From Lineolata rhizophorae (Eukaryota; Ascomycota; Dothideomycetes; Lineolatales; Lineolataceae): a DNA stretch of 64,000 nucleotides. Positions 46,108 to 51,120 of the stretch are shown here, one piece after another. The notes under the pieces were generated by a model. It worked only from the letters and a program-made list of their open reading frames with translations, was not told the DNA's origin and made no database searches. Location of the stretch: NCBI GenBank assembly GCA_010093515.1, contig MU001674.1, forward strand, positions 234,246 through 298,245, given 5' to 3'. The position numbers and the translations under genes are program-made. Positions within the stretch are counted from its first letter, which is position 1. Each line of letters begins with the position of its first letter.

Positions 46108-49100
46108 TCAAAAATCAAGCAGGTCGCCCATCATGGACCGCTGGTATTTCTCAACCACTTCACCACATCTCACGAGCACACCTGCAGCCAGCATGCGAAC
46201 TCTCTCACTTTCTTCATCACCCCCACCAAACCGCTCAAAGATTAGACGCGTCCACTCCTGCGTCTCCACGAGCTCCTTGGCATGCTCTCTCGATATTCTC
46301 TCCTTGTCTTCGTTGACATCGAGTAAGATTAAAAACGAGAACAACAACGCCTCAAGCACGGGAAAGTTATCCGAGGCCGATGCTCGCACGGACAACAAAA
46401 GATCCCAGAATTCAGATGTCATTTGCGGCAATGAGAGCGTAGATGGGCCTGAAGCATGAAGCAAGAGGGCTAGCGTTCGTAGAAAGGGCGGCAGCAGCTC
46501 AGTGGAGAAGTATAGGTTGTCCGTCCCATATGCCTGCAGCCGGGCCCACCACCGGCCTGTGAGCGGGAAGAACATATTTTGCGCGACGATTTTGGCCAGT
46601 TCGTTCGGAATTGCCTTCTTTCGCTTCTTTTCGACTTCCATTCGCGACGAGAAAGTGCGGACCTTGAGTGCGTTCGGCCCGCTCAGTTTATCGGCCGCGT
46701 CGAGAGCCATAGGCTCCAGTAAAGCGTGTTCGAGGTTCTTCGTAAGCCTGTTTACCGGTGAAGATGCGGAGTATTCGCCCGAGTAAATTTTGTGTAGCTT
46801 GTCAGGGAGTTTATTAGACGGGAATGGCACCGTTCCTTGGCTAGAGGGTCGCTGCCCGTCTTCGCCATCATTCGAAAAGCCAGCTAGCTCCCGGGCTCCA
46901 AGGCCGAGAGCTGAAAGTATAGAAATACGCTGGTTTAGCGAGTAATCGCCTTCAAAAAAATTGCGTGAAAACCATTGGCCCACGCTTGCCGGCTGAGCTA
47001 AGAGCACGGCAATAAGAGCATCCCGGCGTAAGTCCTCGAAATTATCGCGCTCGTACTGGTCGTTAAGGCCTGCTAAAACATTGGCGAGTTCATCGATGTG
47101 ATCTAGGACTTCCTTGCCGAAAGTGGCCTTGCGCCGAATTAAGTCGGGGGCAGTGTTTAGAGCAAGCATATGCCGGTCATAATTTTCGGTATCTCGAAGG
47201 CCGGCGATAAGATCGCGGATGTAGCTTTTCGAGGTCAGTCAACATGAGCAACACTTGATCGATGCGCCAGAATAGAACTTACACGGGTGCCCTAGGCTTA
47301 TCCCTTTGGATGAGAGTAGGATCTTCCTCGTCGTCTTCTGGGTCAGAGTCTGGCTTCGCATACGGCACAAGATCATCCTCTTCCCCTCCAGATTCGTCTT
47401 CGACTTCCACTATTCTCGGACCTTTAATTTCTGTTATTCTTGGACTCGCGCTGGCATTTGACGGGGATTGCTTGGATATCGTTGGCTTTTTTGACTTTGA
47501 TCTCCTCCCAGTGGTACCCTGAGTGTTCGAAAGGCCCTGCTTTCTGTCGGTAGACTGCGTGAAGGTACTTCGAAGATCATCGATGGAACCCATCTCGTCC
47601 TTGACCCTAACAAGTTGCAAGTACCACTTTGCTTCTGGAGTTTCCGTGTCTTCAATTTTGAAGTCCATTCTATTCTCGGGTGTATCCACAAGCTCTGATA
47701 ATGCTGTTCCAACTATCATTCCGAGAAATCGAGCCCGTGGAGACGGCGATGCCAATCGGGAAGAAACACCATTCATATGTACGCTAGATCGTGCAACCGT
47801 GAAAAGAAGCATCCGGTTAGCTCTATGGACGTAGCTTGCCAAGAGCAGGAGGACCTGGCAGATTGCTATTCCTAGTTAGTTGCAAAGAAATGAAAGTTGA
47901 GGAATTGAACATGCCTTCCTGTTGGATGATGGGAGTATGCTTAATGTACAACGAGTCGCTGAACTGCGTTATAGCCTTTTCAAGGACTGCGGAGACAGTA
48001 TCTACCGCAAGTAAGCCTCTAATCACCTGAGAAGGCTTCGAAGAAATTTACCAGCTTTGGGCGAAAGCGCTAATACTAATGCACGCAGCAGATCGAAACT
48101 GCCATCAGCGCCGAGTGATGCGGGAGATAATAGCCACGAAATAAGTTTGTTCTCGAGGCTTTCACTGTGCGCGTAAATAGCCCTTAGCAATGCGGCTGAT
48201 CCACCGATTGCTTTTGTCGGTTGCAAGCCCCCCGGAAGCCCATCTTCAGGCTTTGGCGGTAAAACTTCAACGTTCAAGAAGGCCAAAGTCGAACTAAGGA
48301 ATTGCTGTTGCTGGTATGATGACATATGCTTTAGAAGCGCCTCAATTCTCTGCATGCTATTGTCACCCGACACCAATATAGAGCGGTAAAACTCCGAAAT
48401 TACCTGTCCTGTCGTACTGATCAGCTAGTTTTACGGATCTATAGGAAAGTGCGAGACCTACTGGAATATCCCAAGCTGAACGTTTTGGCCAGAAGCTCAG
48501 CAAGCGCTGACCAACCAGTGGAATCTCCTATGCCAAGCATAAACGCCATTTTGGCGCAATTTAGACCAAGCCATGATGCAAATTGGCTTCCCGAAGCGGT
48601 CCACGACTCCTTTCTGACCTCCTTCCTACCCTTCAGCGCATCTTCCGCCTGCGCCGCTGCAGAGACAACCTTGCCTGACGCGATGAGCGAGATGTATTCT
48701 TTCCAGAGCATGGTTTTTTGCACTTCAGCGACCTCTGCTTTGCGTATTTCAGACCACAAGGTTTGTGATGTGCTGTCCCCATCTAGGACATGCTCAAGCA
48801 GTTCTAATGAGTCTCTGATGTGACGATCGATATTCCGAGAAGCCTTCGTGGCATCCTGGCCCGCGAAATCTTGTTCTGTAGCGAGAGCTCGTAGACGAGC
48901 TATGATTGCCCCGATGCCACTCACGCTTCGCAGGCTTGTGGCGAGCAATCTTTTAAAGTTTATGTCTGATTGGCCAAGCTGAAGCGTAGACCAAAAGTTG
49001 GGGGCAATCGAGTTGACGAGTACGGATACAATCTGTGATGATACTGGCCCGGGAACTTTTATTGAAAATAGCGCTGAGTCTTTTCCGTCTTTCTTCGCGA

Positions 49101-49296
49101 AGTAGTTCAGTGCGTCTTGGACATCATCAAAGTTGGGTTGTGATTTGAGTATTTCAAGCAACGACTTCGGCGATTGGCCTTTCGAAAGGTCAGCTCCGCT
49201 GTTGTCCTGTTCATTCGGCGTCGTAGATCGGACAGGTATCTCCTCGATTATCCTCGGTTTAGTAACAGTCTTCACTGGTGTGAGGAGACCTTCCAT
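46108..49296 (-). CDS. TEL2: Telomere length regulation protein Tel2
   Basis: CDS complement(join(46108..47224,47283..47865,47915..47986,48052..48408,48462..49296)), 987 aa. Tel2, with Tti1 and Tti2, is the co-chaperone that matures PIKK kinases (TOR, ATM, ATR). The diagnostic region is SLYIKHTPIIQQE, ASYVHRANRMLLFTVARSS, then SPRARFLGMIVGTALSELVD and the C-terminal YIRDLIAGLRDTENYDRH block. Start MEGLLTPVKTVTKP fits the family. Introns 1 and 2 are the least certain: the chosen acceptors (48409, 47987) keep phase and give SRQVISEFYR and SPKAVLEKAITQF. Intron 3 (47914..47866) is GC-AG. Length matches the family. It diverges from UBA3 with 274 bp between starts. Confidence 0.87.
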
Positions 49297-49570
49297 CTTT
49301 GCTGAGGGCCTTCCGTCAGTGAGTTCTTAGGTTGTTTCTTGGCAAATGTGTGGAAGGTCCTAGCTGCAAACTGCGGAGGCAGATGCTCCCAGACTAACCC
49401 GGCTATAGTAAAGTGTGATGTGTTCGGCATAGACGCGGTAAGCGCTATCGCGCTTACGATAACACGCGCGACCATCTCCCGACGTGCCCTTCCAAGTTTC
49501 TTAGCACCACTCCACCAACTGCACGATATTATTGGAATAGGTTGAGGCGGTGCCTCCTGTTGGTGGCAAC
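49297..49570. promoter_or_regulatory. Compact TEL2-UBA3 bidirectional promoter
   Basis: The two divergent ATGs are 274 bp apart, so both promoters and leaders share this segment. An ATG-started minus-strand frame (49613..49272) crosses it, but its product has no recognisable domain, and the canonical TEL2 N-terminus starts later at 49296. Confidence 0.55.
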
Positions 49571-51120
49571 ATGGCCCGAGCACGGTGGTTAGTACCTCTA
49601 CTAATTTATCCATGTATGTGCGCTAAAAAGTGTGTGTAGGGCGTACTTGGATCGGGTGTTGAACAGGACAGGCCCGTTCACTGATCCAGATTGGGTTCCT
49701 GGAGAGGCGCCTTTGGAATCACTCTTAAGAGCGAAGATATTGTAGGTCTAGAGATCTAGGGATCAAAAGGTGTTTTGGAAACCAGTTGCTAACGTGTCGT
49801 AGGGTTATGTACGGCACCTCGGCTGATTACCATAAACGTAACTAAGTCTAATCAGAGTAGTGGTGCCGGAGGTCTGGGCTGCGAGATTCTGAAGAATCTT
49901 GCTCTATCAGGTTTTACAGACATTCATGTCATTGACATGGGTATGTAATGTACCCTTCCTAGCTTAATAACAGAACGCCTAAGATTAGAGTCACAGACAC
50001 CATTGACGTATCGAACCTCAACCGCCAATTCCTCTTCCGTCAAGCCGATGTTGGCAAGCCGAAAGCAGAAGTTGCCGCCCGATTCGTCGAGAAACGCGTG
50101 AGAGGCGTCCGTATAACACCACACTGTTGTAAGATTCAGGACATGGACGAGGACTACTACATGAAGTTCTCGATGGTGATATGCGGCCTGGACAGCATCG
50201 AGGCCCGGCGGTGGATCAACGCGACACTGGTGGGAATGGTGGATGCAGACGACCCGGACAGTCTGAAACCGCTAGTGGACGGTGGAACCGAGGGATTCAA
50301 GGGCCAAGCCCGCGTCGTACTGCCCACCATGACATCCTGCATCGAGTGCCAACTCGACATGCATGCCCCGCGCGCAGCCGTGCCACTCTGCACTCTGGCG
50401 ACCATCCCACGCCAGCCCCAGCATTGCATCGAGTGGGCACAAATCATCGCGTGGGAAGAAGAGCGCAAGGACGACGTTCTCGACACGGACGATCCGGAGC
50501 ATGTCTCGTGGCTATATAGCAAGGCGCTAGAGCGTGCTAATGAGTTCAACATCCCCGGGGTCACGTACTCGATGACGCAAGGCGTCGTCAAGAATATTAT
50601 CCCGGCCATTGCGTCTACAAATGCTATCATCGCTGCTAGCTGCTGTAACGAGGCCTTCAAAATCTGTACGAGCTCGAATCCTTTCCTAGGCACGCCGGAG
50701 TCCACCAACTACATGATGTTCAGTGGCGACGACAGTATATATACATACACATTCGAGCATCTGAAGAAGGATGACTGCCCCGTTTGCGGCAACTTAGCAC
50801 GGCCATTGGAGGTCAATCCGGAGATTACGCTGCGGGAGTTCATCGAAAGCTTGGCAGAACGTCCAGAAGCGTGCGTTTCCAGTCTCGTTTCAGAGGTGAT
50901 TTTACTGCAAGCTAACTAGTCAGACAGGCAACTGAAGAAGCCCACTTTGCGTAGCGAAGCCAAATCACTTTACTATCAGTCTCCACCGCAACTGGAAGAG
51001 CAGACCAGACCCAATCTTGACAAGAAGCTCTCGGAGCTTGTGTCTAACGGCGAGGAGGTGGCCGTGTCAGACCCGGCTTTCCAGATTGACTTCAAATTCA
51101 AGCTTGTCTTCAAGAGCTAG
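49571..51120 (+). CDS. UBA3: NEDD8-activating enzyme E1 catalytic subunit Uba3
   Basis: CDS join(49571..49587,49640..49741,49803..49808,49861..49940,49997..50870,50928..51120), 423 aa. Uba3 with Ula1/NAE1 adenylates NEDD8/Rub1 and forms its thioester, feeding cullin neddylation. The N-terminus [19 protein letters not shown] is canonical. The nucleotide loop [13 protein letters not shown] (39-50) is assembled only if the 6-nt exon 3 (GGTTAT) is included. The catalytic Cys is Cys200 ([12 protein letters not shown]). Zinc ligands are CIEC and CPVC. The C-terminus [12 protein letters not shown] is the ubiquitin-like domain that recruits the E2. All five introns are 52-61 nt with clear donors and branches. 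Length is normal. Confidence 0.92.
49803..49808 (+). other. UBA3: 6-nt micro-exon of UBA3
   Basis: GGTTAT lies between a GTCGTAG acceptor and a GTACGG donor. The upstream intron (49742..49802) has a GCTAACG branch. The downstream intron (49809..49860) has AACTAAG/CTAATC and ends AGTAG. Inclusion yields the invariant LVIGAGG; skipping yields KIFGAGG, which loses two residues of the first Rossmann strand. Confidence 0.82.

Follow-up and report, generated by a model that had tools for sequence, protein, structure and literature searches.

The locus analysed here raises a simple question: is a stretch of only six bases a genuine exon of the gene for UBA3, the catalytic subunit of the NEDD8-activating enzyme (NAE)? 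The gene lies on the forward strand of the window, by which we mean the whole stretch of 64,000 nucleotides that was analysed, and is modelled with six exons of 17, 102, 6, 80, 874 and 193 nt that together encode 423 amino acids. The coding part of exon 1 as modelled (49571-49587, 17 nt) has an in-frame ATG and ends in phase 2; intron 1 (49588-49639, 52 nt, GTTAGT...TAG) separates it from exon 2 (49640-49741, 102 nt), which matches a relative and has AAG ATA TT at its 3' end. Intron 2 (49742-49802, 61 nt) has the donor GTAGGT, a branch-like CTAAC at 49789-49793 and a TAG acceptor, and is followed by the putative micro-exon GGTTAT (49803-49808), which completes the Leu, encodes the Val and starts the Ile of KILVIGAGG. 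Intron 3 (49809-49860, 52 nt) has the donor GTACGG, a branch-like CTAAG at 49842-49846 or CTAAT at 49848-49852, and again a TAG acceptor. Exon 4 (49861-49940, 80 nt) begins T GGT GCC and is an 89 percent match to a relative, with a weak ThiF match under the family cut-off. Beyond intron 4 (49941-49996, 56 nt, GTATGT...CAG), exon 5 (49997-50870, 874 nt) supplies the bulk of the protein and is 82 percent identical to a relative; intron 5 (50871-50927, 57 nt, GTGCGT...CTAAC...CAG) precedes exon 6 (50928-51120, 193 nt including the stop), which carries the larger part of the E2-binding domain.

Translated, the six exons give a complete UBA3. Residues 4-422 of the window protein align with residues 7-433 of human UBA3 (PDB 1tt5 chain B; E 2.8e-144), and KVLVIGAGGLG of the human chain is aligned to the model with no internal gap; human UBA3, the NAE catalytic subunit (PDB 1tt5, 3gzn), belongs to the same family and has the same KxLVIGAGGLG loop. 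The P-x-C-T region, whose Cys we take to be the catalytic one, aligns with FPMCTIASMPR of 1tt5_B. Both UBA3 domains are present, ThiF (PF00899) with 185.2 bits and, at the C-terminus, E2_bind (PF08825) with 115.3 bits; when the micro-exon is skipped the ThiF score goes down to 173.7 bits. The best protein relatives among the matches listed are from Cenococcum, Mytilinidion and Coniosporium, at about 84 percent identity, and point to a genome that is probably that of a Dothideomycete. A search of the 31-Mb, 48-contig genome, in which the best candidates were scored, found one UBA3 locus, and the remaining E1-like places among those candidates match at no more than 60 percent. The two best of these, on contigs C7 and C3, are probably UBA1 and UBA2; both have the equivalent loop in an uninterrupted frame, so the micro-exon is not common to those E1 genes. 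One scan of viral contigs confirmed no UBA3 loci there.

The case for the hexamer begins with the reading frame. Joined with GGTTAT, exons 2 and 4 read KILVIGAGGLG; joined without it, KIFGAGGLG. Introns 2 and 3 are both phase 2, so the frame is kept whether the hexamer is included or skipped. Splice paths through the interval were enumerated on the conditions that donors be GT or GC, that acceptors be AG and that introns reach at least 30 nt. There were 213 paths with one intron, 10 of them open and in frame, and 4918 with two, 226 of them open and in frame. None of the one-intron paths yields LVIGAGGLG in an open frame, and the single two-intron path that does so is the proposed GGTTAT path. 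The pattern AG|[AG]GTNAT|GT likewise occurs once in the interval, at GGTTAT. What is found is thus a 6-nt unit in the context AG|GGTTAT|GT, between complete introns (61 and 52 nt) that have branch-like sites. A donor tally over 19 candidate introns, many of them doubtful, from the window and 200 kb of the genome contained GTAGGT in 3 and GTACGG in none. The sequence-only reading had given the same coordinates, lengths and peptide for the exon and its two introns, and its further statements also stood: GGTTAT is required for the conserved strand-loop, being on the sole enumerated path that yields it, each flanking intron has its own donor, branch-like site and acceptor, and skipping stays in frame to give KIFGAGG. 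Judged by these sequence tests, GGTTAT (49803-49808) is confirmed as a real micro-exon of UBA3, and the same tests support the view that the first Rossmann strand ends with residues from this two-codon exon, whose inclusion would be needed for the conserved protein. A cDNA that includes the hexamer would contain ATATTGGTTATTGGTGCC.

If the exon is real, its footprint might be visible in related proteins, and relatives do appear to bear it, which is the new element of this analysis. A first, unbaited protein search gave the best 120 of 5795 matches; two further searches, baited with skip forms, gave the best 120 of 3160 and the best 120 of 4124, and the three pooled comprise 264 distinct listed proteins. 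At least two of these rows are SUMO-activating enzymes (P0123 and P0251, the latter a plant SUMO E1), and some come from outside the ascomycetes, for example from Mortierella, Closterium and Ditylenchus. Among the 264, 215 include the residues, 37 have an exact two-residue hole and 12 have other forms; 37 of 264 is no frequency, as two of the searches were baited. The hole proteins read K-x-L/F-GAGG or similar, as a skipped phase-2 six-base exon would give, with L before the hole in 26 of the 37 and F in 11. Both residues are what a phase-2 join predicts, exon 2 contributing (C/T)T and exon 4 a T, C or A; I was also admitted by the filter at this position, with no such case.

The unbaited list locates the irregularity precisely. 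Val and Ile occupy their columns in 111 and 109 of the 120 proteins, and 7 proteins are gapped at both micro-exon residues. An indel falls within the six-residue window KILVIG in 12 of 120, compared with at most 3 of 120 (mean 0.14) in each of the 238 windows starting at residues 48-285, and residues 43-50 are identical across all 120. This contrast is valid for the conserved core alone, whose limits of 48-285 were picked after the first table had been seen, and variable loops exceed the micro-exon site in indels (up to 71 of 120 at residues 295-309 and up to 15 of 120 at residues 329-338).

By name, the 37 hole proteins presumably comprise 7 from Dothideomycetes, 21 from Eurotiomycetes, 5 from Leotiomycetes, 3 from Sordariomycetes and 1 from a Lipomycete, 6 of these assignments having been looked up. 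Two further looked-up names, with other footprints, are Bacidia (Lecanoromycetes) and Candelina (Candelariomycetes). Seven of the 12 other forms have Ser immediately before GAGG, as would result if the annotated frame read through the acceptor AG followed by T or C, and two read R-V-I, which the acceptor AG and the first base of the micro-exon, G, would give. The Bacidia protein, which belongs to the seven Ser forms, reads KVLV-MYVQQ, where V-M-Y can be derived from the AT of the micro-exon and a GTAY donor; the read-through of the window itself is KILV-MYGT. These read-through forms suggest that in lichen-forming fungi the two acceptors and the second donor have kept their phase. P0072 may be another case of reading through an acceptor, and P0063, P0059 and P0245 are not fully accounted for by these footprint readings. 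From the spread of footprints we infer that the exon was probably present across Pezizomycotina and in their common ancestor. The protein P0126 of Limtongia smithiae (Lipomycetes) has the KIFGAGG footprint outside Pezizomycotina, and the exon may be older than that group.

We therefore consider it very probable that GGTTAT is a real, constitutively included coding exon, recognized by intron definition, kept across Pezizomycotina and often missed by gene callers. In the mechanism proposed, each short flanking intron brings its own donor, branch site and acceptor, and the spliceosome would pair sites across each intron, so that the size of the exon would be irrelevant. The flanking introns (52-61 nt) are of ordinary fungal size, and since introns 2 and 3 are short and have complete sites of their own, the size of the exon should be no obstacle; intron definition is the probable mode of splicing. 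According to the review PMC8624252, intron definition is prevalent with short introns and independent of exon length, and Prp40 is needed where exons are too small for enhancers. The argument of the sequence-only reading that two codons approach the lower limit for exon definition is thus misplaced, as introns of this size lead one to expect intron definition (PMC8624252) and a published one-nucleotide fungal exon (PMC12940212) shows that even smaller exons are spliced. The exon would encode the end of the strand leading to the ATP loop, and it would have been retained because its loss would damage the enzyme; it is probably included in most transcripts. Automated gene callers would often skip it, leaving the two-residue hole in deposited proteins.

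The reading of the hole as annotation error draws on pairs of near-identical proteins that differ at these two columns. Aspergillus terreus P0185 is without the two residues and P0112 has them, the two being otherwise 3 substitutions apart, and five close pairs, of which this is one, differ by the same two gap columns and by 3, 3, 3, 8 and 10 substitutions. The source of the rows points the same way. The 65 rows from lgn, jgi or ena only, which we assume to be metagenome or read assemblies, comprise 63 that include the residues and 2 with other forms; the two-residue hole is found in 0 of these 65 among the 264 listed proteins and in 37 of the remaining 199 (198 of NCBI source and 1 from EukProt), a difference for which Fisher's test gives 1.7e-5, as a guide only since the rows are related. 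Contigs shorter than 1800 nt account for ten of the 264 rows. With P0158 (279 aa) left out, the other nine are of full length, and every one includes the exon. These nine leave 158-452 nt for introns and UTRs combined. In six of them less than 278 nt is left, which is the total of the five introns of the UBA3 gene in the window, so these six are probably transcripts. From these comparisons we infer that the hole in relatives is probably an annotation error and not an isoform, although RNA evidence may underlie some of the annotated skip forms.

To gauge the effect of skipping on the protein, AlphaFold was run on two proteins that are 97 percent identical, Lophium P0010, which skips the residues, and Mytilinidion P0004, which includes them; confidence is modest, and the models are used for the local register of strand and loop only. 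The first strand spans residues 50-54 in both. In the including model this strand reads KILVI, then comes the GAG loop, and a helix begins at residue 58. The skip model has KIFGA instead, so that the Gly-Ala of the ATP loop becomes part of the strand, and its helix begins one position later in numbering and three later in sequence. Two ten-residue blocks at the site have pLDDT values of 74-79. The overall fold of the skip model is no worse by pLDDT and pTM (mean pLDDT 65.4 and pTM 0.53, against 66.2 and 0.44 for the including model). The models suggest that skipping would disturb the nucleotide-binding loop and yield a defective enzyme.

These results bear directly on the suggestion that the exon is alternatively spliced and that skipping, which yields KIFGAGG, is a regulated off-switch for neddylation, a reading that we regard as improbable. 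The frame does survive skipping, which would be expected about one time in three and follows from the two phase-2 introns. The skip form is also found repeatedly among deposited proteins, in many species (37 of the 264 listed), and some of these entries may have an RNA basis; a glucose-regulated micro-exon of 20 nt is reported for Trichoderma Xlr2 (PMC11121469). Against this, skip forms number 0 of 65 in the lgn, jgi and ena rows, the pair of A. terreus entries, one skipping and one including, fits differences between gene callers, and in the predicted skip form the strand takes in Gly-Ala from the ATP loop, at modest confidence. The switch for neddylation by exon inclusion that the sequence-only reading proposed is therefore left without support from these rows, with modelled skipping disturbing the loop, and is speculation. 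A related proposal, that the exon has been kept since before the Pezizomycotina radiation, perhaps since an ancestor shared with Lipomycetes, and that low-level skipping is a conserved route to inactive UBA3 that tunes neddylation, strikes us as similarly doubtful.

It might instead be held that only the skipped or some other form is made, that this UBA3 is divergent or failing, and that the hexamer is a coincidence. A single intron of 119 nt (49742-49860) does leave the frame open. Yet the gene is the sole UBA3 locus found, its exon 5 retains 82 percent identity to a relative, and relatives in the unbaited list have the V and I in 111 and 109 of 120 cases. Coincidence was also measured directly in 20000 dinucleotide-preserving shuffles of the interval, with the first 6 and last 3 bases fixed and introns of at least 40 nt: the exact peptide was obtained through an exon of 3-24 nt in 11 of them and a strand-like hydrophobic peptide in 242, and 3 strand-like solutions also had branch-like sites in both introns. 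We consider this reading very unlikely. Hardly credible at all is a stwintron, in which an internal intron interrupts a splice site of an external one and nothing is retained between them: the two intron-sized units do lie back to back, but two nested removals of the whole 119-nt interval would leave KIFGAGG with V and I gone, whereas the conserved protein needs the hexamer retained and both units have complete donors and acceptors around GGTTAT.

The putative constitutive micro-exon of UBA3 resembles a few other cases in fungi. The closest in kind is known from Fusarium, where CYP621A P450 genes have a one-nucleotide exon (Nelson and Syed 2026, PMC12940212) that is likewise ultra-small, set between short introns, part of a conserved motif, inferred from the integrity of that motif and missed by gene models. 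It differs in that omission of its single nucleotide breaks the frame, whereas the six bases in UBA3 are frame-neutral, and in that SRA reads confirmed it and it has been described in Fusarium orthologs, whereas the UBA3 exon is known from sequence and from footprints in several classes. The 20-nt micro-exon of Trichoderma Xlr2 similarly encodes a piece of a key domain and was overlooked by the JGI model, but it is reported to be glucose-regulated with two isoforms (PMC11121469), while the sequences compared here give no sign of regulation in UBA3. An 8-nt micro-exon in CYP5141A1 of Phanerochaete, named in PMC12940212, also lies inside a conserved motif, in a basidiomycete P450 gene unrelated to UBA3. 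A "6-nt exon" of Rhodosporidium DAO1 was considered and set aside, as it appears to consist of six bases that a construct retained from a longer exon (PMC4624585). Among the papers listed in the literature searches we recognised none that links UBA3 or NEDD8 to a fungal micro-exon, and we saw no description there of a recurrent two-residue annotation gap in UBA3.

The interest of the finding lies in the apparent age of the exon and in the recurrent gap in annotation. If it is borne out, a central enzyme has a six-base exon at its ATP loop that probably persisted while the filamentous ascomycetes radiated, and many deposited UBA3 proteins carry a two-residue hole. Gene callers and RNA aligners could then readily be benchmarked on UBA3, which would also lend itself to tests of splicing by intron definition, and caution would be called for when fungal NAE is modelled from database sequences.

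Three further features of the locus were observed. The end of intron 3 has AGs clustered at 49855, 49857 and 49860, and use of the acceptor at 49857 would insert one Ser (KILVISGAGG), the form annotated in Lambiella (P0025). Compared with relatives such as P0001, the modelled N-terminus falls short by up to some 14 residues; an in-frame stop lies at 49538, upstream of the modelled ATG, and another start or an extra upstream exon is possible. Finally, an open frame of 295 amino acids on the reverse strand (48439-49326) adjoins UBA3 in the opposite orientation.
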